Shown here one piece after another: positions 4,783 through 44,896 of a DNA stretch of 64,000 bases. The position numbers and the translations under genes are program-made. The notes beneath the pieces are model-generated. The model did no database searches. It was not told the origin of the DNA and saw only the letters and a program-made list of their open reading frames with translations. Source of the DNA: Ignavibacteriales bacterium (lineage in GTDB: Bacteria; Bacteroidota; Ignavibacteria; Ignavibacteriales; Ignavibacteriaceae); NCBI GenBank assembly GCA_015709675.1, contig CP054182.1, positions 2,521,448-2,585,447 of the forward strand, in the 5' to 3' direction. Positions within the stretch are counted from its first letter, which is position 1. Each line of letters opens with the position of its first letter.

Positions 4783-4865
4783 AAAATCATCTCCTGAGTC
4801 TCTGCGCCACACGATTAACGCAGAAAATATGGGGTAAAAGCAAAGATTTAACTAATACAGTAAAT

Positions 4866-7622: not shown

Positions 7623-7645
7623 GAGTCTGAAAAATTTCAGAGCAA

Positions 7646-7653
7646 CAAATATA
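7646..7653 (-). promoter_or_regulatory. candidate -7/-10 element upstream of the tRNA-like array
   Basis: TATATTTG on the minus strand, 24 nt before the first unit. It fits the Bacteroidota TAnnTTTG -7 consensus and recurs upstream of the UvrD-type gene. Weak, motif-level evidence only. Confidence 0.3.
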
Positions 7654-7666
7654 GTAAATCGGGGAT

Positions 7667-14790: not shown

Positions 14791-15792
14791 TCAGAATCCA
14801 AGCTGCACGGTGATGATACTCTGGGATGAAAAGTAACGAGCACTGCGGTATGCGTAGTCAACCTTCATATCAAACAGATAATTAAGATGCACCCCCGCAC
14901 CAAATGCAGGGCCGTATATATTACGGTCTTCATCACTTCCGCTGTTCAGAAACGCATACCCTGCCCTCAGAAAAAACTGATTATTATAACTGAATTCCGT
15001 TCCAAGGCGAATCTCACTTTCAGTATAGCTGCTTCCGGAATATAAACCGCTGACGCGCACTCCATAGTTCTCAAACTGCACGGTTTTATAAGTAACACCA
15101 AGTTCTGTGATTAAAGGCAGCTCATCTTCGTTTGTGGAGATTTTTACGATGCGAGGGCCGCGTGTCCCGACAGTATCCCGCGCGGTAATGAGCAGATCAG
15201 AGCCGTCAAACTGCATTGCAGGACCGAAATTCTTTACTACTCCCGCAACGGAAAGTCCGGGAACCGAACCAACATTTTTATAGAGAAAACCAATATCAAA
15301 GGAAACGCCGGTGGCTTCGGCTGCTTTTATTTTTTCATAGATCAGGTTCACAGAGCCGCCGAGTGAAAGGTTATTTCCAATGGTATTAGAATATCCGAGA
15401 CTGTTAACCACGAGGGAAGGGCTGAAAAAATTGCCGGTTCCGTAGGGCATATCAATAGTGGTTTCAGGGATGTCACCAACCTCCAGAGATTTTACGCTGA
15501 AAACCATACTGCCATAATTGCCAAAATTGGCGGCAACGGAGGTGTAAGAAAGCCCCATATCAGCAATCAGCCGCATATAGGAAAACATTCCTGTTATGGT
15601 TGCAAAATCACCATGCACACCGGCCGGATTATAAAAAAAGGAATTAATTCCCTCATTTGCAGCAATATCAGCATTTGCCATGCCGTAAAGAGATGCTGAT
15701 ACAGGAAGAAGCAGATGCTCAGCAGCGGATGTTCCGTTCTGTGCAAAAAGGGGAACAGCAAAGAACATGAATGAAAGAAACAGCTTTTTCAT
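14791..15792 (-). CDS. PorV/PorQ-family (UPF0164) outer-membrane beta-barrel protein
   Basis: A 333-aa protein with a signal peptide (ends PLFA). It shows typical motifs of PorV/PorQ/UPF0164 barrels: ASLYGMANADIAANEGINSFFYNPAG near residues 33-58 and alternating hydrophobic strands ending in an aromatic residue (SIITVQLGF). PorV shuttles cargo from the T9SS translocon to the attachment complex; PorQ-like members are related. It lies 47 bp downstream of the last large cassette protein on the same strand, so it probably belongs to that transcription unit, much as the second PorV-like gene (44897) follows another T9SS protein. Confidence 0.82.
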   Translation of the reverse strand: MKKLFLSFMFFAVPLFAQNGTSAAEHLLLPVSASLYGMANADIAANEGINSFFYNPAGVHGDFATITGMFSYMRLIADMGLSYTSVAANFGNYGSMVFSVKSLEVGDIPETTIDMPYGTGNFFSPSLVVNSLGYSNTIGNNLSLGGSVNLIYEKIKAAEATGVSFDIGFLYKNVGSVPGLSVAGVVKNFGPAMQFDGSDLLITARDTVGTRGPRIVKISTNEDELPLITELGVTYKTVQFENYGVRVSGLYSGSSYTESEIRLGTEFSYNNQFFLRAGYAFLNSGSDEDRNIYGPAFGAGVHLNYLFDMKVDYAYRSARYFSSQSIITVQLGF

Positions 15793-15839: not shown

Positions 15840-18800
15840 TTAAAACTCCTTCTCCGGAATAACCGCCAGTTTGAGGACTTTAGAACCGATGCCGGGCATA
15901 TCAACATGGGCGATATATATACCACCCGCCACTCTTTGCCCCTGCTCATTGGTCAGGTTCCAGTCAAGATACTGGTTATACAGATCATCATGCCGGAGTG
16001 TGGTAACTAATCTTCCAGCCACAGTATATATCCTGATAACCGCCTGCTCCGGCAGACCGGTAAAGCGCATCACTCTGCCCAGCCCCCACTCCGCCCGGTT
16101 GGAGGCAATATACGGGTTCGGATAAACACTAATCTCTCCGGTTTTCTGCTGTGCCGTGGTCTTATCACTAAAGTCAGCAGCTTTCAGCTCAATGGTAAAC
16201 TGATCTCCCTCCATCAGTTGTTTATAGGTATCTATCCTGATAACCGTACCCTCCGGAGGAAGACTGCCTCTTAGGGTAATCTCACCAAAGAGAATATCAC
16301 TTTTGCTAAGCACCCCTGAGGAAGAAGCCAATGGCTCAGCATAGATGCCATCGGGTTCAAGAAAACAGTAGAACCTCTCCCAGTCCTTAGTGCTGTTGCG
16401 CTGAGTCCAGAGAGTATCTCTCGGGGTAATGTTATCATAAATCTTAATCTTCAGCCGTTTCCCCCTGGTAACATCCCACACCTCAAAGGGGACTCTGCCT
16501 TTTGCCAGGGGGTCATTGCTCAGCAGAAACTCCAGCCCGCCAGAGTAACCGGAAGAATAATACTGACTACCCTGAGCGGTGAAACGAATCTCATAGTCAC
16601 TCTTGCCAATGTTGTTATACAAATCAATCAACTGGATATTATTACTGCGCAGCTCCCACCCACCCAAAGCAGCAGCCCCGGTGTTCACAATGGAATCTCT
16701 CTGCCCTGAGGGGGAAAGAGAGTAAATCTGAGAGATACCAAAAGGTCTCTGCTCAGGAGGGAGGCGGTTCATCTGTGTTCTGTCAGGGTCATTAACCAGA
16801 ACCATCCACCCCTGCTGAATGGATTTCTTAAGAGTGTCAGCAGAAAAATCAGCAGAGGAGCTTAGCACCAGTTCATTGGTAGTGGTGTTGGTAACAGAGT
16901 AATAGACAGAGTCCTTAGGGTTACCGGAGAAGGTGATATGGTAAATGCCGTCCTTAACGCTTGCCGGGTCAATAATTTTGAAAGAAACCTGGGCATTGTT
17001 TGAAGAACCCAGAGTCTGCACTGCCTGGAGAGATTCTCCCTGAGAGTAAGGAGATGAAAAATCAATCTTCTTTCTTCCTGGAAAGACGGTATATACCTTA
17101 ACCGGGCTTTCGGTAAAGGAGGGGGAGGAGAAGGGGTTATGAGAATAAGCAGTAACCCCGAAGTAATAGGGGAGCCCGGGGATGAGGTTACCGCCTGAGA
17201 AGATATCCTTAGTGACAGAGGTATATCTTCTGATACCGTTATCCTTACCGATAATAACAGGAGCTTTAACGGCCAGACCGTTGGCGATAATGTTATCTTC
17301 AATAACGGTAACCCCGTTAACCAGATCAAACAGGGCAATTTCTCTTGGTTCAGAGCCGAGTGAGTCAGCAAACTGCCAGACGCGGTAACCTTCGAATGAG
17401 TAGGTAGTATCGTTCAGGTTCTGCCCGGTAATCATAAAATCCTCAATATCATAACTCTCAGCGGAGTCATTCCACCAGAGAGTAACTTTTCCTTCTTCTT
17501 CATAAATTTTAACCTCCGGAGAAGCAGGAGCAGGGGGAGTGAGGAAGTTATTTTCGTAGGCACGTTTAAGGAGTTTAGCTCTTTGCCGTAACAACTCAAG
17601 ACTATTCATATTATCAGTACCCTGTGCAGCAATAACCGCAAGAACAATATGAATGGTATCTGAAGGGTTGAAGGTTACGGGACCGAGGGAGTATCTAAAA
17701 GTTGAACCGATTGACCAATTTTCAATTCCTTGAGCTATACCTTGTTTGGCAAGCCATCCTTCATTTAGTTCTGGGTATCCAGTAAAAAGATGGCGTGTTT
17801 TTTTGCCAGTTATTGGATTTATAATAGGAGAACCGTTATCAAACAATCCTCTGGACATATTATAGTATTGCGTGGCAGGTTTGATACCATAAAATGAAAA
17901 ATAATTTGTGTCATATACAAGCGGCATAGTAAAAGAATATAGCCCTAATTCAGTACTCGCATCCGAATTTATTTTAGAAGAGAGCACTAATAGCCCCCCC
18001 GCCGGTGGAGGAGTGCCGTAAAGATAGTGACGATTAGTTTTATTATAACCATACATAAGGTTCAGCAGAGTATCAACGCCGCAAAAGGGTTTGTTTATTG
18101 AATCATCTCTTGAATAAGTTAAAAAATGACCGGCTGATAATATAAAGCAAGAATCCAGAGGAGAAGAATCTTTATTAATATATTTTAAATCAATAATTGC
18201 TACATTATTCAGAAAATTAGAACGGTTAAAAGCATATACAAGTGTGTGCTGCTCAATTTTTAACGAAGCATCACCATAAAACAAATCGGGGAAAGGGAAA
18301 AAGGTTGAATCTGCAAAATTAGAAACATGCCAAAGTTGTTCATCACCATAATATTTTGGAAGGTCCAGGTTTCTTGTAAAAACTCCGTCATTATTCCTGT
18401 CCTCCCATGGGGCTCCAAATTCAACTGGCCACTCATTATAGTCAAGTTCAAATTGATCACGGATGGTTCCAAAAGGAAATTTTTCCCAGTTTTTTCTGAC
18501 TTTATATATTCTGAATCTTGTGTCATCTGGCTTTTCACTAATAAGTTCAACCGGACCTGGTTTAAGAAATTTTCTTAATGCATATCGTGGCATAACAAAA
18601 TTATTGTTGAGATTCCCAACCCACATCGTAGCATGATATCCGCTGAATAATTTATTTGCATATTCACCAGAGGGCCAAAACAACCCACCTCTATCTCCAT
18701 AGTTTTTATCTGGTGCAAGAAACTGATTACCATCATTGCTTATCCATAGCTTGAACTGATTGATGCTGAGATAATTGAAGTGGTGACCATAAGAATTATA

Positions 18801-18875
18801 TTCACCGCCCGGCTGTGATAGCAAGGCGGTGTTAAAGAATGTTAAAAGAAAAATTGCCTTAAGAGGTTTCAACAT
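15840..18875 (-). CDS. cassette T9SS protein 1 (~1000 aa; variable N-terminus, constant C-terminus)
   Basis: A 1011-aa protein with a signal peptide (MLKPLKAIFLLTFFNTALLS). Residues about 25-390 form a divergent N-terminal domain (GHHFNYLSINQFKLWISN; DYNEWPVEFGAPWEDRNNDG, with a Ca-binding-like DRNNDG loop). From about residue 392 (SLGPVTFNPSDTIHIVLA) the sequence is nearly identical to the three paralogues. That constant part includes a fibronectin-like segment (YEEEGKVTLWWNDS) and ends in a T9SS sorting domain (ISVYPNPYIASNR... GGIYIAHVDMPGIGSKVLKLAV). It should be exported to the cell surface. Preceded at 3 bp by an 8-Cys peptide gene. Function unknown; closest in domain layout to the 41301 protein. 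Confidence 0.85.
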   Translation of the reverse strand: MLKPLKAIFLLTFFNTALLSQPGGEYNSYGHHFNYLSINQFKLWISNDGNQFLAPDKNYGDRGGLFWPSGEYANKLFSGYHATMWVGNLNNNFVMPRYALRKFLKPGPVELISEKPDDTRFRIYKVRKNWEKFPFGTIRDQFELDYNEWPVEFGAPWEDRNNDGVFTRNLDLPKYYGDEQLWHVSNFADSTFFPFPDLFYGDASLKIEQHTLVYAFNRSNFLNNVAIIDLKYINKDSSPLDSCFILSAGHFLTYSRDDSINKPFCGVDTLLNLMYGYNKTNRHYLYGTPPPAGGLLVLSSKINSDASTELGLYSFTMPLVYDTNYFSFYGIKPATQYYNMSRGLFDNGSPIINPITGKKTRHLFTGYPELNEGWLAKQGIAQGIENWSIGSTFRYSLGPVTFNPSDTIHIVLAVIAAQGTDNMNSLELLRQRAKLLKRAYENNFLTPPAPASPEVKIYEEEGKVTLWWNDSAESYDIEDFMITGQNLNDTTYSFEGYRVWQFADSLGSEPREIALFDLVNGVTVIEDNIIANGLAVKAPVIIGKDNGIRRYTSVTKDIFSGGNLIPGLPYYFGVTAYSHNPFSSPSFTESPVKVYTVFPGRKKIDFSSPYSQGESLQAVQTLGSSNNAQVSFKIIDPASVKDGIYHITFSGNPKDSVYYSVTNTTTNELVLSSSADFSADTLKKSIQQGWMVLVNDPDRTQMNRLPPEQRPFGISQIYSLSPSGQRDSIVNTGAAALGGWELRSNNIQLIDLYNNIGKSDYEIRFTAQGSQYYSSGYSGGLEFLLSNDPLAKGRVPFEVWDVTRGKRLKIKIYDNITPRDTLWTQRNSTKDWERFYCFLEPDGIYAEPLASSSGVLSKSDILFGEITLRGSLPPEGTVIRIDTYKQLMEGDQFTIELKAADFSDKTTAQQKTGEISVYPNPYIASNRAEWGLGRVMRFTGLPEQAVIRIYTVAGRLVTTLRHDDLYNQYLDWNLTNEQGQRVAGGIYIAHVDMPGIGSKVLKLAVIPEKEF

Positions 18876-18878
18876 AAA

Positions 18879-19139
18879 TTACCAACAATACAGATCAAGA
18901 CAATTATTGTACTGTGGACATTTTTCTCTTGAAGTTAATCTACAACATCCTTCTGATTGATCACCTTCAAGATCCCAGCACCTGAATTCAGTTGCCTGAA
19001 AGCATTCCTGGTATGTATCCGGGCAATGACTTGCCAGCAACACTTTATCTTCTCTGAGATAGCTGATTGTGGTAACTGAGCTGAAGATTGCAAGAGCAAT
19101 TACAGCACCAATTATCAGGTTGAACAATTTGTTTTTCAT
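18879..19139 (-). CDS. 8-cysteine 'CW-end' peptide 1
   Basis: An 86-aa precursor. The first ~36 residues are nearly invariant in four paralogues: MKNKLFNLIIGAVIALAIF is a membrane or signal helix, followed by SSVTTISYLREDKVLLA. The remainder varies except for eight cysteines: CPxTYxxC, a C before W/F, a CC pair, then three single cysteines, the last in the C-terminal CW. That suggests four disulfides in a small extracytoplasmic peptide. The layout recalls Bacteroidota NVEALA-type small Cys-rich peptides, but I see no NVEALA motif. RBS AAGGAGACC precedes the ATG. It lies 3 bp before its T9SS protein gene. Confidence 0.8.
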   Translation of the reverse strand: MKNKLFNLIIGAVIALAIFSSVTTISYLREDKVLLASHCPDTYQECFQATEFRCWDLEGDQSEGCCRLTSREKCPQYNNCLDLYCW

Positions 19140-19171
19140 AGTGGTCTCCTTCTTGTTAGTTTATGGTTATT

Positions 19172-19191
19172 CCCGGTATTGTGATACCGGG
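19172..19191 (-). terminator. hairpin between cassette T9SS gene 2 and peptide 1
   Basis: CCCGGTAT/ATACCGGG stem with a TGTG loop. There is no strong T run, so it may attenuate transcription or stabilise mRNA ends rather than terminate. An almost identical hairpin sits at the matching place in the other block (26447-26466). Confidence 0.55.
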
Positions 19192-19220
19192 TTAAGTCAT
19201 CTTCTCTATGAACGGACAAA

Positions 19221-22200
19221 TTAAAACTCCTTCTCCGGAATAACCGCCAGTTTGAGGACTTTAGAGCCGATACCGGGCATATCAACATGGGCGATATATA
19301 TACCACCAGCCACTCTCTGCCCCTGCTCATTGGTCAGGTTCCAGTCAAGATACTGGTTATACAGATCATCATGCCGGAGTGTGGTAACTAATCTTCCAGC
19401 CACCGTATATATCCTGATAACCGCCTGCTCCGGCAGACCGGTAAAGCGCATCACTCTGCCCAGCCCCCACTCTGCCCTGTTGGAGGCGATATACGGGTTC
19501 GGATAAACACTAATCTCTCCGGTTTTCTGCTGTGCCGTGGTTTTATCACTAAACTCAGCAGCTTTGAGCTCAATGGTAAACTGATCTCCCTCCATCAGTT
19601 GTTTATAGGTATCTATCCTGATAACCGTACCCTCCGGAGGAAGACTGCCTCTGAGGGTAATCTCACCAAAGAGAATATCACTCTTGCTAAGCACCCCTGA
19701 GGAAGAGGGCAACGGCTCAGCATAGATGCCATCGGGTTCAAGAAAACAGTAGAACCTCTCCCAGTCCTTAGTGCTGTTGCGCTGAGTCCAGAGAGTATCT
19801 CTCGGGGTAATGTTATCATAAATCTTAATCTTCAGCCGTTTCCCTCTGGTAACATCCCACACCTCAAAGGGAACTCTGCCTTTTGCCAGGGGGTCATTGC
19901 TCAGCAGAAACTCAAGCCCGCCTGAATAACCGGAAGAATAATACTGACTCCCCTGAGCTGTGAAACGAATCTCGTAGTCACTCTTGCCAATGTTGTTATA
20001 CAGATCAATCATCTGGATATTATTCGACCTGATTTCCCATCCGGTTCCTGCCGAACCTGCACCGGTATTAACCACAGAATCTCTCTGCCCTGAGGGGAAA
20101 GAGAGTAAATCCGAGAGATACCAAAAGGTCTCTGCTCAGGAGGGAGCCGGTTCATCTGTGTTCTGTCAGGGTCATTAACCAGAACCATCCACCCCTGCTG
20201 AATGGATTTCTTAAGCGTGTCAGCAGAAAAATCAACAGAGGAACTGAGCACCAGTTCATTGGTGGTGGTGTTGGTAACTGAGTAATAGACAGAATCCTTA
20301 GGGTTACCTGAGAAGGTGATATGGTAAATGCCGTCCTTAACGCTTGCCGGGTCAATAATTTTGAAAGAAACCTGGGCATTGTTTGAAGAACCCAGAGTCT
20401 GCACTGCCTGGAGAGATTCTCCCTGAGAGTAAGGAGAGGAGAAATCAATCTTCTTTCTTCCGGGAAAGACGGTATATACCTTAACCGGGCTTTCGGTAAA
20501 GGAGGGGGAGGAGAAGGGGTTATGAGAATAAGCAGTAACCCCGAAGTAATAGGGGAGCCCCGGAATCAGGTTACTGCCGGAGAAGATATCCTTAGTGATG
20601 GAGATATATCTTCTGATACCGTTATCCTTACCGATAATAACAGGAGCTTTAACGGCCAGACCATTGGCGATAATGTTATCTTCAATAACGGTAACCCCGT
20701 TTACCAGATCAAACAGGGCAATTTCTCTTGGGTCAGAGCCGAGTGAGTCAGCAAACTGCCAGATGCGGTAACCTTCGAATGAGTAGGTAGTATCGTTCAG
20801 GTTCTGCCCGGTAATCATAAAATCCTCAATATCATAACTCTCAGCGGAGTCATTCCACCAGAGAGTAACTTTACCTTCTTCTTCATAAATTTTAACCTCC
20901 GGAGAAGGAGGAGCAGGGGGAGTGAGGAAGTTATTTTCGTAGGCGCGCTTAATTAAATCAGCTTTTTTACGAAGTACTTCAATGCTGTTTATATTATCAG
21001 TCCCTTGTGCGGCAAGTTCACATAGAACTATATCAAGTGTATCCATATCTGCCATATAAAGGGGACCAAAGGAAAAGTACATAACAAAGGATGGACCTGA
21101 AATTCCCGCAGGAAGGGGTGTTCCTTCATTCCAACCATTGCCTGTAACCGGATCTCCGGTAAAAAAATGTTTTGTATCATTACCGGTAACCGGATTATAG
21201 AATTTTGAACCATCCGGCGCCAAACCAGTATATCTGTTCATCAGAATTTTTCTTGGGTCAAGATTCCTGATTGGGAAATAAGCAGTGTCAAAATCAAATT
21301 TTGGTCTGAATGAATAGATTTCTGAATTTTTGTAGTCGGGTATTTTCCCTGTGGTTGTCAGTGCGGAATGACCAGGAGAGTACTTCTTAGGTGATACAAG
21401 AACCAGAGTACCGTATGCAGGGGGTATATCAAAATGAAATACACTTGAACGGATGTTATAAGATATAAGCATCTGTCGGAGAGAATCGAATGATTTGTAT
21501 TCCCCGACTACTCCTCCGCCAATCTGATGATGAATTCCGATAAAAAAAGAATCGAGCGCAGTCCCGGATTTATTTATGAAACGATATTCCCTGAAAATAG
21601 CATCTGCCAGAATATTGCTTCTGTTAAAACCATACCCTGACATTTGCACTTCCAGTTTAACACCTTCGTCCCAATGGTTATTGGCGGGTATCAGTGGATA
21701 AAAACTGGTGTCTGCTGTATTTCCGGAAAACCAAAGCATTTGGTCCCCTTTGATTTTTGGTTTGTCTATACCTTGTGTATATATTCCATTACCGTCAGTA
21801 TCCTCCCAGGGAGCACCTTTATTTACCGGCCACTCATTGTAATCAAGTTCATAATAGTTTCTTAGCTCACCAATAGGCATTGTTTCCCAACCCCGCTGCA
21901 GCTTAAAAACTCTGACCGAGGGATTGTTTCTGTCTTCTGAGGTTCCATTTGAGGTTATAACCCCTGGTGATAGATAAATTCCTGAACTAAAACGATTTAC
22001 GATAAGTTCGTCATTCATTTTACCAAAAAAGGTAAAACCTGATGGACCACCATAGTCCTTAAATGCATATCTTCCGCCTGGCCAAAACAGACCATATTGA
22101 TTTGTTGGATTGTAATAAAAATGAGTACCTGAAGTTGAAAACCATGCAAGGTAATTATTGATATCAAGTTTGTGATAGTATTGTCCATTATCATCCTTGA

Positions 22201-22294
22201 TAGTCTGTGTTAAAAGAACTTCAGAACCAGCAGATAAAATAAAAAGTATTAGTATAAGGGAGCTTTTAGCTCCCTTATAATTAATTTTCGTCAT
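19221..22294 (-). pseudogene. cassette T9SS protein 2, interrupted by a 1-nt frameshift
   Basis: The reading frame starting at 22294 runs 761 codons and ends out of frame at 20009. The rest of the constant region, including the T9SS sorting domain, continues in another frame to 19221. The break is in a homopolymer: CCCTGAGGGGAAAGAG (plus strand, G4 at 20094-20097), where gene 1 has CCCTGAGGGGGAAAGAG and genes 3 and 4 have CCCTGAAGGGGAAAGAG. The N-terminal ~450 residues are the most divergent of the four (signal, then QYYHKLDINNYLAWFSTSG; GAPWEDTDGNGIYT), and the constant part starts later, at about KRAYENNFLTPP. It is a pseudogene, a phase-variable gene or a sequencing error; as read, the product lacks its export signal. 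Confidence 0.85.
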
Positions 22295-22297
22295 TTG

Positions 22298-22582
22298 CTA
22301 CCAGCAGTAAAGAGTTAAACAATTGGAATATAGTCCGTCACATGTTGTAGGTTGCTGGGGTGTTCCGACATTTTTACGAACGCAACAGTCATTCTCGAGT
22401 TTCCAGCAGCCATCTTCAGTTTCTAAATATATTATTTCCTGACAGGCCTGATAAGTTTCAGGGCAGTTGCCCGTCGCCAGCAACACCTTATCTTCTCTGA
22501 GATAGTTGATTGTGGTAACTGAGCTGAAAATTGCGAGGGCAATAACAGCACCAATTATCAGGTTGAAAAGAAAGTTTTTCAT
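22298..22582 (-). CDS. 8-cysteine 'CW-end' peptide 2
   Basis: A 94-aa precursor from the ATG at 22582 (AAAGGAG 9 nt upstream); upstream in-frame codons overlap the MauE-like gene and are not used. The leader is MKNFLFNLIIGAVIALAIF followed by SSVTTINYLREDKVLLA. The core has the same eight cysteines with longer spacing (CPETYQAC, DGCW, NDCC, TTCDGLYSNCLTLYCW). It lies between the MauE/DoxX-like gene (19 bp) and the T9SS protein (3 bp). Confidence 0.8.
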   Translation of the reverse strand: MKNFLFNLIIGAVIALAIFSSVTTINYLREDKVLLATGNCPETYQACQEIIYLETEDGCWKLENDCCVRKNVGTPQQPTTCDGLYSNCLTLYCW

Positions 22583-22601
22583 AAGGAAGTCTCCTTTATT
22601 A

Positions 22602-22958
22602 TTAGGCAATTTTTTTCCGTAATAATTTAATGGTGGGATAATTAGAAAAAAAAATAGCGTTGGCTGCGAGGAACAGAACAAAAAGGGATAATGCGGAGAT
22701 TACAGAAATAAACTCAGTCGGTTTAAAAATCAGCAACAGACCGATAATAGACTCTGATGTGATAACCAGAAAACTAATTTCAGAGATAAAACCAGCACCG
22801 AAATGAATCGAAGTTGTCAGCCCGATCAGGACAGACGCCAATTCATCTGGTGAATATAATTTGAGAAAAGCAGTACCCAGCAATATCAACCCGAGGAACC
22901 TCAAAACAAGGGGTTCTGATTTTCTAAAAAACTTGTTCATAGAAGCCGTAATGGTCAT
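22602..22958 (-). CDS. MauE/DoxX-like four-helix membrane protein B
   Basis: A 118-aa inner-membrane protein with about four hydrophobic helices (LRFLGLILLGTAFLKLYSP; VLIGLTTSIHFGAGFI; ISFLVITSESIIGLLLIF; VISALSLFVLFLAANAIFF). The RFLG...FLKLYSP start and the conserved Glu of the SESIIGL helix fit the MauE/DoxX redox-associated family. MauE is needed for disulfide maturation of the small methylamine dehydrogenase subunit, so a role in maturing the Cys-rich peptides is attractive, but this protein contains no cysteine and that role is inferred. A 116-bp internal stretch (22660-22775) is identical to paralogue A (29887-30002). A strong sigma70-like promoter lies 42 bp upstream. Confidence 0.7.
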   Translation of the reverse strand: MTITASMNKFFRKSEPLVLRFLGLILLGTAFLKLYSPDELASVLIGLTTSIHFGAGFISEISFLVITSESIIGLLLIFKPTEFISVISALSLFVLFLAANAIFFSNYPTIKLLRKKIA

Positions 22959-22999
22959 TCTTCCTCCAGATTTACCAAAATTTAATAGATTCAGGGAAA

Positions 23000-23028
23000 A
23001 GTTTAGTCAAAAGATAACACTTTGTCAA
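23000..23028 (-). promoter_or_regulatory. near-consensus sigma70 promoter of cassette block 2
   Basis: On the minus strand TTGACA, 17 nt, TAAACT, ending 42 nt before the start codon of the MauE-like gene B, in the 156-bp gap after T9SS gene 3. The -35 is perfect and the spacing ideal. It would let the second block be transcribed independently of the first. Confidence 0.65.
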
Positions 23029-23114
23029 GGAAAATCTTTCGGACCAGGCAAATTGTATTCTCCACCTTAATTTTTCTTGATGCACCGCTGAATAATGAAA
23101 AACCATGGAAATTC

Positions 23115-26100
23115 TTAAAACTCCTTCTCCGGAATAACCGCCAGTTTGAGGACTTTAGAGCCGATGCCGGGCATATCAACATGGGCTATATATATACCTC
23201 CCGCTACTCTTTGCCCCAGTTCATTTGTCAGGTTCCAGTCAAGATGCTGGTTATACAGATCATCATGCCGGAGTGTGGTAACTAATCTACCTGCTACCGT
23301 ATATATCCTGATAACCGCCTGCTCCGGCAGTCCGGTAAAGCGCATCACTCTGCCCAGCCCCCACTCTGCCCTGTTGGAGGCGATATACGGGTTCGGATAA
23401 ACACTAATCTCTCCGGTTTTCTGCTGTGCCGTGGTCTTATCACTAAACTCAGCAGCTTTCAGCTCAATGGTAAACTGATCTCCCTCCATCAGTTGTTTAT
23501 AGGTATCTATCCTGATAACTGTACCCTCCGGAGGAAGACTGCCTCTTAGGGTAATCTCACCAAAGAGAATATCACTTTTACTGAGCACCCCGGAAGAAGA
23601 GGGCAATGGCTCAGCATAGATGCCATCGGGTTCAAGAAAACAGTAGAACCTCTCCCAGTCCTTAGTGCTGTTGCGCTGAGTCCAGAGAGTATCTCTCGGG
23701 GTAATGTTATCGTAAATCTTAATCTTCAGCCGTTTCCCCCTGGTAACATCCCACACCTCAAAGGGGACTCTGCCTTTTGCCAGGGGGTCATTGCTCAGCA
23801 GAAACTCCAGCCCGCCAGAGTAACCGGAAGAATAATACTGACTACCCTGAGCTGTGAAACGAATCTCGTAGTCACTCTTGCCAATGTTGTTATACAGATC
23901 AATCATCTGGATATTATTACTACGCAGCTCCCACCCACCCAGAGCAGCAACCCCGGTGTTCACAATGGAATCTCTCTGCCCTGAAGGGGAAAGAGAGTAA
24001 ATCTGAGAGATACCAAAGGGTCTCTGCTCAGGAGGGAGGCGGTTCATCTGTGTTCTGTCAGGGTCATTAACCAGAACCATCCACCCCTGCTGAATGGATT
24101 TCTTAAGCGTGTCAGCAGAAAAATCAACAGAGGAGCTGAGTACCAGTTCATTGGTGGTAGTGTTCGTAACTGAGTAATAGACAGAATCCTTAGGGTTACC
24201 GGAGAAGGTGATATGGTAGATGCCGTCCTTAACGCTTGCCGGGTCAATAATTTTGAAAGAAACCTGGGCATTGTTTGAAGAACCCAGAGTCTGCACTGCC
24301 TGGAGCGATTCCCCCTGAGCGTAGGGGGAAGAGTAATCAATCTTCTTTCTTCCGGGAAAGACGGTATATACCTTAACCGGGCTTTCGGTAAAGGAGGGGG
24401 AGGAGAAGGGGTTATGAGAATAAGCAGTAACCCCGAAGTAATAGGGGAGCCCCGGAATCAGGTTACTGCCGGAGAAGATATCCTTAGTGATGGAGATATA
24501 TCTTCTGATACCGTTATCCTTACCGATAATAACAGGAGCTTTAACGGCCAGACCATTGGCGATAATGTTATCTTCAATAACGGTAACCCCGTTTACCAGA
24601 TCAAACAGGGCAATTTCTCTTGGGTCAGAGCCGAGTGAGTCAGCAAACTGCCAGATGCGGTAACCTTCGAATGAGTAGGTAGTATCGTTCAGGTTCTGCC
24701 CGGTAATCATAAAATCCTCAATATCATAACTTTCAGCGGAGTCATTCCACCAGAGAGTAACTTTACCTTCTTCTTCATAAATTTTAACCTCCGGAGAAGG
24801 AGGAGCAGGGGGAGTGAGGAAGTTATTTTCGTAAGCGCGTTTCAGGAGTTTAGCTCTTTGCCGTAACAACTCAAGACTATTCATATTGTCAGTGCCCTGA
24901 GCAGCAATAACCGCAAGAACAATATGTATGGTATCTGAAGGGTTAAAGGATACGGGACCGAGGGAGGTTCTGTATGCGGAGGTAATACTTGAATTGAATA
25001 TTCCTTGCGCTACTCCCTGTTGAGCAATCCATCCGGATCGTGTTACAGGATCTCCTGTAAAAAGATAGCGTGATTTTTCGCCAGTTATTGGATTGATAAT
25101 AGGAGACCCGTTATCAAACAAACCCCTGGAAAAATTATAGAATTGTTTTACGGCTGAGACACCTGCAAAAGAAAAATAATTAGTGTCATACCAAAGCGGA
25201 GCTGTGAATGAATAAATGTCAAAATATTCTCTTTGATTATTGTTAATTGATGTGGAAAGGAACAGATGACCGCTTGCAGGCGGGGGCGAACCATAAAAAA
25301 AGTTGTTATTGGTTTTATTATATCCATAAACCAGATTATTGAGAGTATCTATTCCTGCAAAAGGTCGATTTGATGAATCTCGGTCACTAAAAGGGACATT
25401 ATTTCCATAGAATAAAATGAAAGTTGAATCTGTGGAATAAATATCTTTATTTATAAACTTTAAGTCTATTATCACCACATCCTGTAAAAAATTTGATCGG
25501 TTAAAACCATAGATCAGGGTTTGCTGTTCAATCTTCAGGTATGCATCACCAAAGAATAATCCGGCATAAGGAATAAAATTTGTATCTCCAAAATTTGAAA
25601 CAAACCATAATTGTTCATCACCTAGAAATTTTGGATTGTCCAAATTTCTTGTAAAAACTCCGTCATTATTCCTGTCCTCCCATGGGGCTCCAAATTCAAC
25701 GGGCCATTCATTATAGTCAAGTTCAAAATTATCTCGAATCGTACCATAAGTAATGTTTTCCCAATTTTTCCGGATTTTGTATACTCTGAATCTGGGGTCG
25801 GTAGCATTTTCATTAATTAATTCGATTGGGCCGGGTTTCAAAAATTTTGACCAGGAATAACGGGGCATCAAAAACTTGTCCTGTCTATTTGCAACCCATA
25901 TTGTGCTTAACTGTGCACTTAATGGTTTATGTGCATTTTCTCCGGCTGGCCAGAATATTCCACTCCTGCCAGTAAAATAATCATCTGGTGCAGCGAATAT
26001 AAGACCTGAATTACTGCACCAGATTTTGAATTGGTTAATGCTTATATAATTATAATGATGACCATAATTATTATAAACTCCGCCCGGTTGTGCAAACTGG

Positions 26101-26147
26101 GCGGTGCTTAAAAAAAGCAATAATGCAATGAGTTTTATAATGACCAC
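23115..26147 (-). CDS. cassette T9SS protein 3 (~1000 aa)
   Basis: A 1010-aa protein with a signal peptide (MVIIKLIALLLFLSTAQFA). Its N-terminal domain is closest to that of protein 1 (GHHYNYISINQFKIWCSN; GAPWEDRNNDGVFTRNLD nearly identical) but diverges elsewhere. From about residue 392 it carries the common constant region ending in the T9SS sorting domain. It has private changes in the constant region (YNQHLDWNLTNELGQR where the others have YLDWNLTNEQ). Preceded by 8-Cys peptide 3 with a 6-bp gap. Predicted surface protein of unknown function. Confidence 0.85.
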   Translation of the reverse strand: MVIIKLIALLLFLSTAQFAQPGGVYNNYGHHYNYISINQFKIWCSNSGLIFAAPDDYFTGRSGIFWPAGENAHKPLSAQLSTIWVANRQDKFLMPRYSWSKFLKPGPIELINENATDPRFRVYKIRKNWENITYGTIRDNFELDYNEWPVEFGAPWEDRNNDGVFTRNLDNPKFLGDEQLWFVSNFGDTNFIPYAGLFFGDAYLKIEQQTLIYGFNRSNFLQDVVIIDLKFINKDIYSTDSTFILFYGNNVPFSDRDSSNRPFAGIDTLNNLVYGYNKTNNNFFYGSPPPASGHLFLSTSINNNQREYFDIYSFTAPLWYDTNYFSFAGVSAVKQFYNFSRGLFDNGSPIINPITGEKSRYLFTGDPVTRSGWIAQQGVAQGIFNSSITSAYRTSLGPVSFNPSDTIHIVLAVIAAQGTDNMNSLELLRQRAKLLKRAYENNFLTPPAPPSPEVKIYEEEGKVTLWWNDSAESYDIEDFMITGQNLNDTTYSFEGYRIWQFADSLGSDPREIALFDLVNGVTVIEDNIIANGLAVKAPVIIGKDNGIRRYISITKDIFSGSNLIPGLPYYFGVTAYSHNPFSSPSFTESPVKVYTVFPGRKKIDYSSPYAQGESLQAVQTLGSSNNAQVSFKIIDPASVKDGIYHITFSGNPKDSVYYSVTNTTTNELVLSSSVDFSADTLKKSIQQGWMVLVNDPDRTQMNRLPPEQRPFGISQIYSLSPSGQRDSIVNTGVAALGGWELRSNNIQMIDLYNNIGKSDYEIRFTAQGSQYYSSGYSGGLEFLLSNDPLAKGRVPFEVWDVTRGKRLKIKIYDNITPRDTLWTQRNSTKDWERFYCFLEPDGIYAEPLPSSSGVLSKSDILFGEITLRGSLPPEGTVIRIDTYKQLMEGDQFTIELKAAEFSDKTTAQQKTGEISVYPNPYIASNRAEWGLGRVMRFTGLPEQAVIRIYTVAGRLVTTLRHDDLYNQHLDWNLTNELGQRVAGGIYIAHVDMPGIGSKVLKLAVIPEKEF

Positions 26148-26153
26148 TAAAAA

Positions 26154-26414
26154 TTACCAGCAATACATCTCTAAACATTGATCGGAATTGCAGGTGCTGT
26201 TCTCGGTATTCTTGATACAACAGCCAACTGACTCGTCGCCGACTAACTGCCAGCACCAGTTCTCGGTTGCCTGTCTGCATGCTTCATAAGTTGTTGGGCA
26301 ATGACTCGCCAGCAACACTTTGTCCTCTCTGAGATAGTTGATTGTGGTAACTGAGCTGAAGATTGCAAGGGCAATAACAGCGCCAATTATCAGGTTGAAC
26401 AGAATGTTTTTCAT
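26154..26414 (-). CDS. 8-cysteine 'CW-end' peptide 3
   Basis: An 86-aa precursor with the invariant leader (MKNILFNLIIGAVIALAIF, then SSVTTINYLREDKVLLA) and a core with eight cysteines (CPTTYEAC, NWCW, GCC, STCNSDQCLEMYCW). It has the same length as peptide 1 and occupies the equivalent second position in its block. It lies 6 bp before T9SS protein 3. Confidence 0.8.
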   Translation of the reverse strand: MKNILFNLIIGAVIALAIFSSVTTINYLREDKVLLASHCPTTYEACRQATENWCWQLVGDESVGCCIKNTENSTCNSDQCLEMYCW

Positions 26415-26446
26415 ATTGGTATCCTTTTTATTAGTTGAGGATTATT

Positions 26447-26466
26447 CCCGGTATTGCAATACCGGG
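26447..26466 (-). terminator. hairpin between cassette T9SS gene 4 and peptide 3
   Basis: A perfect 20-nt palindrome, CCCGGTATTGCAATACCGGG, in a spacer nearly identical to 19140-19220. Equivalent in position to the hairpin at 19172-19191. No strong T run follows. Confidence 0.5.
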
Positions 26467-26495
26467 TTAAGTCATCTTCTCTATGAACGGACAAA

Positions 26496-29400
26496 TTAAA
26501 ACTCCTTTTCCGGAATAACGGCAAGTTTGAGGACTTTAGATCCGATGCCGGGCATATCAACATGGGCGATATATATACCACCCGCCACTCTCTGCCCCTG
26601 CTCATTGGTCAGGTTCCAGTCAAGATACTGGTTATACAGATCATCATGCCGGAGTGTGGTCACTAATCTACCTGCCACAGTATATATCCTGATAACCGCC
26701 TGCTCCGGCAGACCGGTAAAGCGCATCACTCTGCCCAGCCCCCACTCTGCCCTGTTGGAAGCGATATACGGGTTCGGATAAACACTAATCTCTCCGGTTT
26801 TCTGCTGTGCCGTGGTTTTATCACTAAACTCAGCAGCTTTCAGCTCAATGGTAAACTGATCTCCCTCCATCAGTTGTTTATAGGTATCTATCCTGATAAC
26901 CGTACCCTCCGGAGGAAGACTGCCTCTTAGGGTAATCTCACCAAAGAGAATATCACTTTTGCTAAGCACCCCTGAGGAAGAAGCCAATGGCTCAGCATAG
27001 ATGCCATCGGGTTCAAGAAAACAGTAGAACCTCTCCCAGTCCTTAGTGCTGTTGCGCTGAGTCCAGAGAGTATCTCTCGGGGTAATGTTATCATAAATCT
27101 TAATTTTCAGCCGTTTCCCCCTGGTAACATCCCACACTTCAAAGGGGACTCTCCCTTTTGCCAGGGGGTCATTGCTCAGCAGAAACTCCAGCCCGCCAGA
27201 GTAACCGGAAGAATAATACTGACTCCCCTGAGCTGTGAAACGAATCTCGTAGTCACTCTTGCCAATGTTGTTATACAAATCTATCATCTGGATATTATTC
27301 GACCTGATTTCCCATCCTGTTCCTGCCGAACCTGCACCGGTATTGACCACAGAATCTCTCTGCCCTGAAGGGGAAAGAGAGTAAATCTGAGAGATACCAA
27401 AGGGTCTCTGCTCCGGAGGGAGGCGGTTCATCTGTGTTCTGTCAGGGTCATTAACCAGAACCATCCACCCCTGCTGAATGGATTTCTTAAGAGTGTCAGC
27501 AGAAAAATCAACAGAGGAACTGAGCACCAGTTCATTGGTGGTAGTGTTGGTAACTGAGTAATAGACAGAGTCCTTAGGGTTACCGGAGAAGGTGATATGG
27601 TAAATGCCGTCCTTAACGCTTGCCGGGTCAATAATTTTGAAAGAAACCTGGGCATTGTTTGAAGAACCCAGAGTCTGCACTGCCTGGAGCGATTCCCCCT
27701 GAGCGTAGGGGGAAGAGTAATCAATCTTCTTTCTTCCGGGAAAGACGGTATATACCTTAACCGGGCTTTCGGTAAAGGAGGGGGAGGAGAAGGGGTTATG
27801 AGAATAAGCAGTAACCCCGAAGTAATAGGGGAGCCCGGGGAGGAGTTTACCGCCTGAGAAGATATCCTTAGTGACGGAGATATATCTTCTGATACCGTTA
27901 TCCTTACCAATAATAACAGGAGCTTTAACAGCCAGACCATTGGCGATAATGTTATCTTCAATAACGGTAACCCCGTTTACCAGATCAAACAGGGCAATTT
28001 CTCTTGGTTCAGAGCCGAGTGAGTCAGCAAACTGCCAGACGCGGTAACCTTCGAAGGAGTAGGTAGTATCGTTCAGGTTCTGCCCGGTAATCATAAAATC
28101 CTCAATGTCATAACTCTCAGCGGAGTCATTCCACCAAAGGGTAACTTTACCTTCTTCTTCATAAATTTTAACCTCCGGAGAAGGAGGAGCAGAGGGAGTG
28201 AGGAAGTTATTTTCATAAGCGCGTTTCAGGAGTTTAGCTCTTTGCCGTAACAACTCAAGACTATTCATATTGTCAGTGCCCTGAGCAGCAATAACCGCAA
28301 GTACAATATGTATGGTATCTGAAGGGTTGAAAGTTACCGGACCGAGGGAAAAATATTGAAAAGGCCCAAACTTACTTAAACCTGGTCCTAAGCCCTTTGA
28401 TGCTGTCCATCCACTATTTGTTAATGGGTCGCCGGGAAATACAAATTTTGTAGTTTTATTAGTTACGAGGTCAATTATAGAATCTCCGTTTTCAAAAAAA
28501 CCCTCGGATCTAAAAAATAATCTTTTCTTATAACCTGGATCAGTAAATTTTCTAATAGAAGTATCGTACGATGCATTTGTAGTGAATGACATAAGGGGAA
28601 CAGGACTTTTATCTGAATACAATTGAGAGTCAGATATATTACTAATTTCAGAGAAAAGTAATAAACAACCTGCTGCTGGTGGTATTGTATATTCTCCGCC
28701 GTTATTATTCTGAAAATAACTGTATATAAGATTTTGAAGCGTATCAATACCCACAGAGGGATAATTATCCGGATTAACTGCCTGAAGAAATGATTGTGAA
28801 AATATAACCCTGGCATTACTAATACTATTACTGCCCTGATTAATAAGTTTTATTGACAATAAAACCACATCCTGAAGAAAGTTAGACCTGTTAAAGGCAA
28901 AAACAGAAACCTGTTCTTCAATTCCGAATGGAGGATCATTCATAAGAGGAGGCAAACGAACACTGATAGGAATAGCATCATGCGAAACATACCATAACAT
29001 TTCATCCCCAAAAATCTTAGGTACATCTATTCCGGGAGTATAAATATCATCTGAGTTCCGATCTTCCCAGGGGGCACCTGATAATACAGGCCATTCATTA
29101 AAATCTTTCTCAAAATTATTTCTTATATCACCATAAGGAAGTGATTCCCATTTATTACGGATCTTAAAAACTCTGTTGTTTTGATAAGGAATACTATTAT
29201 ATGTACCTGGTGTAAGATACTTTAAATGAACAAAAGGCGGTAACTGAAAACTGTCGTTTACTATGCCTGCAACGAAAAAGGAAATGTTTTCAGCAATAAA
29301 TCTTTTGTATGCATTCGAACCACCTGGCCAAAAACCACCAAATGTTAGATTATAGTCATCTTCATTATAGAGCCGGGATCCTATAACTCCTGCATTCGAG

Positions 29401-29522
29401 ACCCAGATTTTGTGCTGATTAATACTAATATAATTAAAATGGTGGCCAAATGGAGAATAAAGACCGCTCTGCTGAGCAAAACAGAGCGGTGTGAAAAATA
29501 CAAAAAAAAGAATAAATCTCAT
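26496..29522 (-). CDS. cassette T9SS protein 4 (~1000 aa)
   Basis: 1008 aa from the ATG at 29522, where a signal peptide begins (MRFILFFVFFTPLCFAQ). An upstream in-frame ATG at 29624 would overlap peptide 4 and place 34 polar residues before the signal. The N-terminal domain (GHHFNYISINQHKIWVSNAG; GAPWEDRNSDDIYTPGID) differs from the other three. The constant region begins near residue 391 (SLGPVTFNPSDT) and ends in the T9SS sorting domain. It has a distinctive SGGKLLPGLPYY where the others have NLIPGLPYY. First large gene of block 1. Confidence 0.85.
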   Translation of the reverse strand: MRFILFFVFFTPLCFAQQSGLYSPFGHHFNYISINQHKIWVSNAGVIGSRLYNEDDYNLTFGGFWPGGSNAYKRFIAENISFFVAGIVNDSFQLPPFVHLKYLTPGTYNSIPYQNNRVFKIRNKWESLPYGDIRNNFEKDFNEWPVLSGAPWEDRNSDDIYTPGIDVPKIFGDEMLWYVSHDAIPISVRLPPLMNDPPFGIEEQVSVFAFNRSNFLQDVVLLSIKLINQGSNSISNARVIFSQSFLQAVNPDNYPSVGIDTLQNLIYSYFQNNNGGEYTIPPAAGCLLLFSEISNISDSQLYSDKSPVPLMSFTTNASYDTSIRKFTDPGYKKRLFFRSEGFFENGDSIIDLVTNKTTKFVFPGDPLTNSGWTASKGLGPGLSKFGPFQYFSLGPVTFNPSDTIHIVLAVIAAQGTDNMNSLELLRQRAKLLKRAYENNFLTPSAPPSPEVKIYEEEGKVTLWWNDSAESYDIEDFMITGQNLNDTTYSFEGYRVWQFADSLGSEPREIALFDLVNGVTVIEDNIIANGLAVKAPVIIGKDNGIRRYISVTKDIFSGGKLLPGLPYYFGVTAYSHNPFSSPSFTESPVKVYTVFPGRKKIDYSSPYAQGESLQAVQTLGSSNNAQVSFKIIDPASVKDGIYHITFSGNPKDSVYYSVTNTTTNELVLSSSVDFSADTLKKSIQQGWMVLVNDPDRTQMNRLPPEQRPFGISQIYSLSPSGQRDSVVNTGAGSAGTGWEIRSNNIQMIDLYNNIGKSDYEIRFTAQGSQYYSSGYSGGLEFLLSNDPLAKGRVPFEVWDVTRGKRLKIKIYDNITPRDTLWTQRNSTKDWERFYCFLEPDGIYAEPLASSSGVLSKSDILFGEITLRGSLPPEGTVIRIDTYKQLMEGDQFTIELKAAEFSDKTTAQQKTGEISVYPNPYIASNRAEWGLGRVMRFTGLPEQAVIRIYTVAGRLVTTLRHDDLYNQYLDWNLTNEQGQRVAGGIYIAHVDMPGIGSKVLKLAVIPEKEF

Positions 29523-29535
29523 CAATGGAACTGAT

Positions 29536-29808
29536 TTACCAGCATGCGGATTGGCAATTGTTCCAGTCGGGATTGTTACATGTGGTGTTAGGAATTCTGA
29601 TACAACAGCCCTCTGATGCATCACCAGTCATTCTAAAACAGTTAGCTGCTCCGTTATCAAGCGCATACTGACACTCTTGGAATGTATCCGGGCAAGTTGT
29701 AGCAAGAACAACTTTATCCTCTCTGAGATAGTTGATTGTGGTAACTGAGCTGAAGATTGCAAGAGCAATAACAGCGCCAATTATCAGATTGAACAAAATG
29801 TTTTTCAT
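29536..29808 (-). CDS. 8-cysteine 'CW-end' peptide 4
   Basis: A 90-aa precursor: leader MKNILFNLIIGAVIALAIF, SSVTTINYLREDKVVLA, then a core with the eight cysteines in the same order (CPDTFQEC, ANCF, GCC, TTCNNPDWNNCQSACW). It follows the MauE/DoxX-like gene A by 14 bp and precedes T9SS protein 4 by 13 bp. Function unknown. Confidence 0.8.
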   Translation of the reverse strand: MKNILFNLIIGAVIALAIFSSVTTINYLREDKVVLATTCPDTFQECQYALDNGAANCFRMTGDASEGCCIRIPNTTCNNPDWNNCQSACW

Positions 29809-29822
29809 ATTGTACTCCCGTT

Positions 29823-30185
29823 TTATTTAGTGATTGTTTTTGACGGTAGTATTTTACCGGTGTAGTTATTAGTGATAAGAATAGCATTGGCTGCGAGGAA
29901 CAGAACAAAAAGGGATAATGCGGAGATTACAGAAATAAACTCAGTCGGTTTAAAAATCAGCAACAGACCGATAATAGACTCTGATGTGATAACCAGAAAA
30001 CTGATCTCAGAAATATAAGTCACACCAGTCTGAATAGCATTGGTCAGACTGATCAGGACAGAGGTAAACTCATCAGGGGAATATAATTTGAGAAAAGCAG
30101 TACCCAGCAATATCAACCCGAGGAACCTTAAAGCAAAGGGTTCTGATTTTCTAATAGTATTTCGCACAGAAGCCAGGGCGGTCAT
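29823..30185 (-). CDS. MauE/DoxX-like four-helix membrane protein A
   Basis: A 120-aa paralogue of the protein at 22602, first gene of block 1. It has the same four helices (LRFLGLILLGTAFLKLYSP, ISFLVITSESIIGLLLIF, VISALSLFVLFLAANAI). The two differ mainly between helices 1 and 2 and at the C-terminus. A good Shine-Dalgarno (GGAGGAAG) lies just before the ATG. No cysteines. Role in redox or disulfide maturation of the neighbouring 8-Cys peptides is inferred from the MauE family. Confidence 0.7.
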   Translation of the reverse strand: MTALASVRNTIRKSEPFALRFLGLILLGTAFLKLYSPDEFTSVLISLTNAIQTGVTYISEISFLVITSESIIGLLLIFKPTEFISVISALSLFVLFLAANAILITNNYTGKILPSKTITK

Positions 30186-30250: not shown

Positions 30251-30348
30251 GAGTTTTTTATCTTGAACTAAATAATTGCTGAAAATCTGATTAACAAAAA
30301 CAGTTCATTTTCAGTATTAAATTCTTTGCGAAGAGGGAAGTGACCGCT

Positions 30349-32694
30349 ATGAAAATTAGATTACCTGAGAATAAATTCGGTAACCGCAGGTTTTTACGGG
30401 TTTTTGGGCTTATTTATGTACTTTTGCTTCTTAATTCTGCTAATCTGTATGCCCAGTCAGTCGCAGGCACAGTGAAGGACAGAAGCAGCGGTGATGCTCT
30501 TTATGGAGTTAATATACTTGCTTACAGGGCCCCATCTGTTTCGGGTGCATCCCTGCTCGGTACTGCAACTGACATGCGCGGAAGATTCGAAATTACCTTC
30601 CACGAGGCCGGAGTTTATTACCTGAAAGTCAGTTATATCGGCTATAAAACGATGATTGATTCGGTAGTAATTCCAGCAAGAGGAAGTGTAACAAAGGATA
30701 TACAGCTTACTGCTGATGATGTAATGCTTGATCAGGTGCTGGTTCAGTCCAAGCGGGATACCTCGCGCCAGGCAGGATTTGTGGCAATACCTGTTGAAGC
30801 ACTTAATACAATACCAACATTCGGGGGTGAAAGAAACCTGTTCGGTGCTATTGTTATGCTGCCGGGGGTCGCCGTCTCATCTGAGCTTTCAAACGGATTG
30901 TATATACGTGGAAGTTCGCCGGATCAGCTGCTCGTGCTTGTGGATAATGTAATCCTCTATAATCCATTCCATCTCGGTGGCTTTGCTTCTGCATTTAACA
31001 CTGATGCTGTTGAGGATATTCAGTTAATCAAAGGGGCTTTTCCTGCTAAATACGGCGGCCGGCTCTCAGGAGTGCTTGATGTTAAACTGAAGGAAAATCT
31101 GCCGGGACAGTTTAAAGGTCTGCTTGCTCTGGGAACCATTACCTCACGCGCAGCCGTTGAGGGATATATTATACCTGAATTGAATTATATCATTTCATAC
31201 CGCACTTTCTATCTTGATAAGATTTTTGATCTGCTTATTCCGGAAACTACTCTCCCGTTTTATCATTTTAATGATTTGAACGCAAAAGTAAATCTGCGTG
31301 CTTCAGCAAAAGACCGGGTGCGTCTGAGCGGATATTTTGGCAGTGACAATCTTTTTACCAAAGGGAATAAGTCAGACGCCTCGTTTGACATAAACTGGGA
31401 GAATTCGATGCTGAGTGCTTCATGGCTGCATCTGAGCGGTGAGAAAAAATTCACCGAAGTTACGGCCACATATTCCGGTTATAGTTTTTCATCTCTCTTA
31501 AAAAATAATACTCCTGATGCATTCAAGAGTGATTATTATTCTTCTGTTACCATCTCTGATTTTGGACTAAAGGTGGACGGCCAGTATTTCAGCGATGAAA
31601 AACACACACTGAAAAATGGTCTTGAGGTTATTCAGCATAGTTTTACGCTTGGTTATAATAATTATTATGACAGTAAATCTGCCGGAGATGAACGGCTGCA
31701 GACTAATTTTATTGCTCCTGAAGTATCAGGATATCTGCAGGATGAATTTCAGGTGCATGCAAGACTCTTTTTAAACAGCGGACTCAGATTTTATTACCTG
31801 CCTAAATCAGATTTTATGTCAGCAGAGCCGCGTGTTTCTCTGGTGTTTGCTCTGACAGATAAGTTTTTTATAAAAGCAGCAGCAGCACAGACCAATCAGT
31901 TCGTTCATCTTCTGGTGAGGAATGATGTTGCGCTTCCGACTGATATATGGTTCCCTTCGGGTAAAAAGATACAACCCTCGAAAGCTAATCAGGGAGTACT
32001 TGGATTTGAGTATGAGTTTGCGGAAAAAGAATATCTGCTTACCGGAGAAATCTATTACAAGGGGATGAGAGATATATATGATTATGCTGATACAGCGAGC
32101 TTTTCTCCGGAGTCACCCCTTGAAGATCAGTTATCTGCGGGTACGGGAAAAGCATACGGAGCGGAGCTGTTCTTTAATAAACGCACCGGAGACTTTACCG
32201 GCTGGGTGGGATTCACACTGGCTAAGACCGAAAGAAATTTTGAAAAAGTGAATGCAGGCAGGCCGTTTCCTCCACGATATGATATACGGTTAGATCTTTC
32301 CGTTGTTGCTTCATATAAGCTGACTAAGAATATTGAGCTTGGAGCAACCTGGACTCTTAAAACAGGGCAGGCAATTACGATGCCGACTGGTATATATTAT
32401 TTCCCCGGCGTATTCTCAGCAAATTCTGACCGTGATCAGATTTTTCTTAATTACTCAGGACTGAATAATTACCGTATGCCGTCTTTCCATAAACTTGATA
32501 TGAGCATAAATTATTCAACTGAATGGCTGGGGAAGAAAACAAAACTGAATTTTAGTGTTTATAATGTCTATAACCACTCTAATCCGTTTGCGAGGTATCT
32601 CAGTTTTCCTGCCGGGGCTTATGGCGACCCGGAGTTACGGCAGTTTACTCTTTTTCCGGTATTTCCAAGTTTTAGCATCCTGACGGAGTTTTAA
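30349..32694 (+). CDS. TonB-dependent outer-membrane receptor with carboxypeptidase-like N-terminal domain
   Basis: 781 aa from the ATG at 30349 (GAGGGAAG about 9 nt upstream; a GTG three codons earlier is less likely). Signal peptide to about residue 36 (ANLYAQ), a CarboxypepD_reg-like beta domain (VAGTVKDRSSGDALYGVNILAY... YLKVSYIGYKT), a plug with MLPGVAVSSELSNGLYIRGSSPDQLLVLVDNV, and a ~22-strand barrel ending in FSILTEF. It imports an unknown ligand across the outer membrane with TonB energy. It overlaps the DUF4249 gene by 1 nt, a pairing common in Bacteroidota. Confidence 0.88.
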   Translation: MKIRLPENKFGNRRFLRVFGLIYVLLLLNSANLYAQSVAGTVKDRSSGDALYGVNILAYRAPSVSGASLLGTATDMRGRFEITFHEAGVYYLKVSYIGYKTMIDSVVIPARGSVTKDIQLTADDVMLDQVLVQSKRDTSRQAGFVAIPVEALNTIPTFGGERNLFGAIVMLPGVAVSSELSNGLYIRGSSPDQLLVLVDNVILYNPFHLGGFASAFNTDAVEDIQLIKGAFPAKYGGRLSGVLDVKLKENLPGQFKGLLALGTITSRAAVEGYIIPELNYIISYRTFYLDKIFDLLIPETTLPFYHFNDLNAKVNLRASAKDRVRLSGYFGSDNLFTKGNKSDASFDINWENSMLSASWLHLSGEKKFTEVTATYSGYSFSSLLKNNTPDAFKSDYYSSVTISDFGLKVDGQYFSDEKHTLKNGLEVIQHSFTLGYNNYYDSKSAGDERLQTNFIAPEVSGYLQDEFQVHARLFLNSGLRFYYLPKSDFMSAEPRVSLVFALTDKFFIKAAAAQTNQFVHLLVRNDVALPTDIWFPSGKKIQPSKANQGVLGFEYEFAEKEYLLTGEIYYKGMRDIYDYADTASFSPESPLEDQLSAGTGKAYGAELFFNKRTGDFTGWVGFTLAKTERNFEKVNAGRPFPPRYDIRLDLSVVASYKLTKNIELGATWTLKTGQAITMPTGIYYFPGVFSANSDRDQIFLNYSGLNNYRMPSFHKLDMSINYSTEWLGKKTKLNFSVYNVYNHSNPFARYLSFPAGAYGDPELRQFTLFPVFPSFSILTEF

Positions 32695-41288: not shown

Positions 41289-41300
41289 GCGGCAGAGAAT

Positions 41301-44870: not shown

Positions 44871-44896
44871 CCGGGTAAGACAGGAGAAAATCAGAT

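Follow-up and report, generated by a model that had tools for sequence, protein, structure and literature searches.

A two-block locus of tandem T9SS-type surface proteins and their paired Cys-rich peptides, with an apparently diversifying cassette, in an Ignavibacteriales bacterium

In the 64,000-nucleotide stretch of Ignavibacteriales DNA that was analysed (the window), two minus-strand blocks, each composed of a MauE-like gene followed by a peptide, a giant, a peptide and a giant gene, precede a gene for a PorV/PorQ-family barrel. A contiguous cassette made up of the peptide core and the N-terminal half of the giant appears, as judged from the sequence, to diversify between homogenised frames. 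The two-block, paired and diversifiable module with T9SS-type cargo and a PorV-family partner that an earlier note on this DNA had proposed is supported. The features of the locus are as follows.

29823-30185 (-): MauE-like A, 120 aa, no Cys, truncated versus redox MauE; PF07291 31.5 bits
29536-29808 (-): peptide 4, 90 aa; 36-aa conserved hydrophobic leader and 8-Cys core
26496-29522 (-): giant 4 (T4), with PorZ-like C-terminal domain; the GTG-started ORF extends to 29624
26154-26414 (-): peptide 3, 86 aa, 8 Cys
23115-26147 (-): giant 3 (T3), 1010 aa, GTG start
22602-22958 (-): MauE-like B, 118 aa, no Cys; PF07291 27.1 bits
22298-22582 (-): peptide 2, 94 aa, 8 Cys
19221-22294 (-): giant 2 (T2), broken into ORFs 20009-22294 and 19221-20075
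18879-19139 (-): peptide 1, 86 aa, 8 Cys
15840-18875 (-): giant 1 (T1), 1011 aa; AlphaFold2 mean pLDDT 83
14791-15792 (-): PorV/PorQ-family outer-membrane barrel, 333 aa; NF033709 134 bits
19021-20947 (-): homogenised frame of giant 2 3' part, spacer and peptide 1 leader; 95.7% identity to 26296-28223
26296-28223 (-): block A homogenised frame of giant 4 3' part, spacer and peptide 3 leader
30340-32694 (+): divergent TonB-dependent-receptor-type protein with CarboxypepD_reg and Plug; member of the ancestral locus
32694-33506 (+): 270-aa lipoprotein-like protein, after the receptor; no Pfam match

The gene order and coordinates given by the earlier note hold, with all MauE-like, peptide, giant and PorV-family genes on the minus strand, and so does its pairing of an 8-Cys peptide with each of the four giants, the gap between peptide stop and giant start being 13, 6, 3 and 3 bp in pairs 4, 3, 2 and 1, respectively. 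Peptide 4 starts 14 bp after MauE-like A, peptide 2 starts 19 bp after MauE-like B and the PorV-family gene lies 47 bp downstream of the second block. The start of peptide 2, previously placed at 22681, had to be corrected to 22582. Equally, giant 2, previously read as one intact ORF, falls into two ORFs because it lacks one nucleotide that giant 4 has (CCCCTTC in giant 4, CCCCTC in giant 2); this may be either a true 1-nt deletion or a sequencing error. The receptor and the 270-aa gene, both part of the ancestral locus, had been omitted.

The array is a mosaic. Over codons 1-400, the giants differ from one another by a dS that is saturated or nearly so and mostly above 1, while after codon ~400-480 it amounts to about 0.02-0.2 in most codon windows, with a dN of about 0-0.03 in most windows of the 3' halves. 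Across copies, identity reaches ~95% in the giant codons past ~400-480, in the spacer and in the peptide leader, and this conserved stretch continues through the giant stop, the spacer and the leader of the next peptide to end at the border of leader and core. Identity drops sharply at both borders of the variable stretch, the leader/core border included, and synonymous sites are saturated in the peptide cores and stand at 0.34-0.70 in the leaders. The tandem copies thus have conserved ends that enclose a divergent cassette, the pattern of a recombination-diversified array. In a tree of the giant N-terminal halves, T1-T4 form one clade (100/99) with long branches, which adjoins the two copies of the relative G078 (99/96); as T2 and T4 sit on long branches and T3 and T4 deviate in letter make-up, the tree is read with caution. 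Because there is one clade, the N-terminal halves probably diverged in place, and foreign import of these halves, a candidate origin, was rejected. The ~95% identity of the 3' parts as opposed to synonymous saturation in the cassette, together with this single clade, argues for 3' parts being homogenised and a cassette diversifying in place.

In a segment around codons 721-800, T1 groups with T3 and T2 with T4, which is a prediction of block duplication. The two peptide-free giants of G078 equally possess a homogenised 3' end, which starts from codon ~800, reaches 90-95% nucleotide identity and covers a shorter stretch. As homogenisation occurs there without peptides, it is independent of them; a diverging inner part next to ends that are homogenised is thus a property of tandem giants, with the peptide core placed inside the diverging part in the present locus. 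A small test on the four pairs for matched divergence of the peptide core and the N-terminal half of its giant was not significant (r 0.28, rank 7 of 24).

Giants 1-4 are homologues of ~1000-aa proteins, with 34-38% identity in the full-length aligned set. A giant match at E 1e-30 was obtained in 42 of 59 relatives and none at this threshold in the one other genome of the same genus; further homologues occur in Calditrichota, Marinimicrobia, Latescibacterota, Gemmatimonadota and Bacteroidota, and also in Ignavibacteriota. We know of no function for these homologues. The T9SS signal of the giants lies in a relationship of the C-terminus to PorZ/PorU (NF052228 PorZ model, 43.3 bits, E 1.7e-11), but the scores stay below the curated cut-offs, 260 for this model and 23 for the C-terminal sorting domain TIGR04183, which reaches 14.9 bits. 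PorZ 5m11 is the best match by sequence and by fold, and a T9SS translocon gene is present in the genome (SprA_N, 7e-50, at G000:C1:2204070). The PorV-like barrel of the earlier note exceeds the cut-off of the PorV-family model (NF033709 PorV_fam, 134 bits, cut-off 90), while its best named relative is PorQ at 76.8 bits, far below the PorQ equivalog cut-off. PorZ is kept at the outer surface by PorQ, and this analogy suggests that the linked PorQ-like barrel might retain the giant there. In the AlphaFold2 model of giant 1 (mean pLDDT 83), the N-terminal fold was assigned by Foldseek, with probability 1.00, to the large beta-sandwich found in carbohydrate enzymes of the GH94/GH116 type; at TM-scores of 0.15-0.19 and an rmsd of around 10 Å or more this resemblance is weak, and a beta-sandwich of this type in the N-terminal half is taken as a lead only.

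The account that we propose, which taken as a whole stands at somewhat less than even probability, starts with a widespread surface-protein locus that would have been expanded in this lineage. The giant would be exported by the T9SS and held on the outer surface by the linked PorQ-like barrel. A MauE-like gene and a gene for a Cys-rich peptide would have been inserted ahead of the giant, and a two-pair block would then have been duplicated. Recombination between copies would keep the C-terminal ~600 residues of the giant, the spacer and the peptide leader alike, while the peptide core and the N-terminal ~400 residues of the giant would diversify as a single contiguous cassette. The hydrophobic leader would take the peptide across the inner membrane. 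Its disulfides might derive from the general oxidising machinery of the cell and not from the MauE-like protein, which has no Cys, and the exported peptide may be a partner, either subunit or ligand, for the variable N-terminal domain of the giant with which it is paired. Such a partner role is suggested by the position 3-13 bp upstream, the one-to-one pairing and the shared place in the variable cassette; it is much less firm than what the account says of anatomy and evolution. Giants elsewhere without peptide, the non-significant test of matched divergence, one frameshifted giant and C-terminal domain scores below the curated cut-offs count against the account. Since only the giant N-terminal half and the peptide core diversify, the former is pointed to as a recognition surface, and a dedicated Cys-rich peptide for each giant in one lineage provides a small, testable partner. 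On the unlikely side stands the further reading that peptide and giant N-terminal domain constitute a two-component module, one exchangeable specificity cassette of which recombination would swap both parts together.

All four peptides contain exactly eight Cys in the order C-C-C-CC-C-C-CW, a frame that is not due to chance, as it is common to four diverged copies. The leader of 36 aa is near-identical in the four copies (MKNxLFNLIIGAVIALAIFSSVTTIxYLREDKVxLA), unlike the variable cores. Families of secreted peptides have this shape, in which the leader is conserved and the 8-Cys core changes fast, and the peptides might consequently be secreted, defensin- or bacteriocin-like effectors in their own right; the giants would be surface proteins expressed together with them, which carry or bind the peptides or give protection from them. 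This is unlikely, given that no exporter, peptidase or immunity-like gene was recognised in the locus, that phage families (PHROGs) and defence families (PADLOC) gave no match and that the peptide fold, predicted with a pLDDT of 71 from an alignment of four rows, has no match among solved or predicted structures. Searches of Pfam and NCBIfam at E <= 1 returned weak unrelated matches below the cut-offs alone, with no match to NVEALA or another annotated Cys-rich peptide family; no paper on NVEALA was found in the literature search and the peptide profile gave no hit in IMG/VR.

In the ancestral locus, a giant is accompanied by the divergent TonB-type receptor and by a lipoprotein-like gene of ~270 aa, and a PorV-family gene lies nearby. 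In G078, G070 and G062, the giant adjoins the same divergent receptor, found at the same position (46% identity in G078), and the ~270-aa gene (273 aa in its positional counterpart in G078), and no Cys-rich peptide or MauE gene is present at these giant loci. The window itself contains a receptor, 1189-aa giant and PorV-like set without peptide at 38448-45928 (+), an internal control. These loci, of a kind that occurs in Ignavibacteria and related phyla, share homologous giants (34-38% identity) with the locus described here but differ from it in possessing one or two giants each and neither peptide nor MauE-like gene. Elsewhere in the same genome, four tandem giants of ~1160-1200 aa with partly homogenised 3' ends and without peptides are found together with 770-aa and 336-aa genes (L122, G000:C1:1737000-1756900).

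An upstream scan for ORFs with a hydrophobic leader and five or more Cys within 450 bp of the giant identified a Cys-rich peptide in front of 0 of 90 distinct homologues elsewhere for which upstream sequence was available versus 4 of 4 here, and no plausible small Cys-rich ORF was seen near giants elsewhere. The profile searches with peptide and MauE-like protein covered 97 relatives as well as 391 and 341 class genomes, which are a sample. The peptide profile recovered its own genome alone in the 97 relatives and then the 391 class genomes, and otherwise weak fragments; the MauE-like profile gave, beyond its own genome, only fragments at E 1e-3 or worse, and a first contig profile search with a narrow alignment found no match. 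The peptide profile is narrow and, because the leader dominates it, a peptide with a different leader escapes such a search, while the Cys-based upstream scan does not depend on the leader. On the simplest reading, the peptide and the MauE-like gene were gained in this lineage. Peptides occurring mostly without giants, which the earlier note had named as evidence against its module, were not encountered; the reverse was seen, namely giants without peptides, and the pairing is not general but confined to this genome among those searched.

This distribution bears equally on the possibility that the peptides are assembly helpers restricted to the periplasm, which fold or hold the N-terminal half of the giant before export and whose diversity follows the giant passively. 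It would be in line with each peptide lying 3-13 bp upstream of one giant within the same variable stretch but is distinctly unlikely in view of 90 distinct giant homologues that do without a peptide.

MauE-like A and B reach the Pfam MauE model PF07291 only marginally at a cut-off of 27 bits. Aligned with the MauE proteins of relatives, they are about 120 aa long and lack the last segment, which bears the CGCFG (CxC) motif; none of the frames downstream of the two genes preserves this segment. As Cys is absent from both proteins, a direct role in disulfide chemistry is unlikely, and the label MauE-like does not imply thiol chemistry. In other Ignavibacteria, a MauE with CGCFG is encoded 0-27 bp before genes for Cys-rich secreted peptides in several operons, in which 6-bladed propellers (PF17170) and thioredoxin-like proteins come after the peptides. 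Operons of this kind were recorded at L117-L121 (G016, G075, G062, G065), with many repeats in G075, and at L057 and L058 (G033, G028) a ~350-aa MauE-type gene abuts or overlaps the gene for an 11-Cys secreted peptide (0, -4 bp). Streptomyces candidate RiPP clusters bearing MauE have been remarked on earlier (PMC7794033).

The recurrence of MauE genes beside small Cys-rich peptides, which the earlier note had anticipated, the RiPP clusters and the MauE-like gene at the head of each block speak for its proposal that the MauE-like protein matures the peptide disulfides and the peptides bind, fold or escort the paired giant. With no Cys and no CGCFG segment in either protein, and with the thioredoxin-like gene of those operons absent from the locus, this proposal becomes quite improbable and its maturation step is not supported. 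Among the genes of 13-33.5 kb in the window, neither propeller nor thioredoxin-like genes were seen. Since operons of MauE and Cys-rich peptides exist in relatives, the MauE-like/peptide module may have been borrowed from an arrangement like theirs and altered. The single-base frameshift in one giant could be explained if the array were a tandem duplication in decay and its pairing had no particular function, but this is highly improbable given that the 3' halves are under purifying selection (dN about 0-0.03 vs dS 0.02-0.2 in most codon windows), the 8-Cys frame is fixed and three giants are intact.

All components of the locus have known relatives; as a combination, they turned up nowhere else in the genome sets and papers searched. 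PorZ/PorQ of Porphyromonas gingivalis resemble the locus in the PorZ-like C-terminal domain of the giant and in the linked barrel, which is closest to PorQ. They differ in that neither giant nor barrel comes near the equivalog cut-off of PorZ or PorQ, that the remainder of PorZ has no sequence match to the giant and that there is no counterpart for the tandem copies and the peptides. The operons of MauE, peptide, propeller and thioredoxin share with the locus a small membrane protein gene followed by a gene for a Cys-rich peptide with a hydrophobic leader, but there MauE carries CGCFG, whereas here a Cys-free MauE-like protein and a T9SS giant as partner are found. No Cys-rich peptide paired with the surface virulence factors of P. 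gingivalis is known to us. For these factors, domain rearrangement and allelic exchange are described and gene conversion is mentioned (PMC5266723); the likeness lies in recombination as a source of diversity among the surface proteins of an organism with a T9SS. Outside the locus, the window encodes a protein of 604 aa that contains a long stretch of collagen-like GPQGPPG repeats (2998-4812) and an ORF of repeated AHSSVGFxQSRHIGTG units (7345-7863), possibly a DNA repeat array and not a gene.
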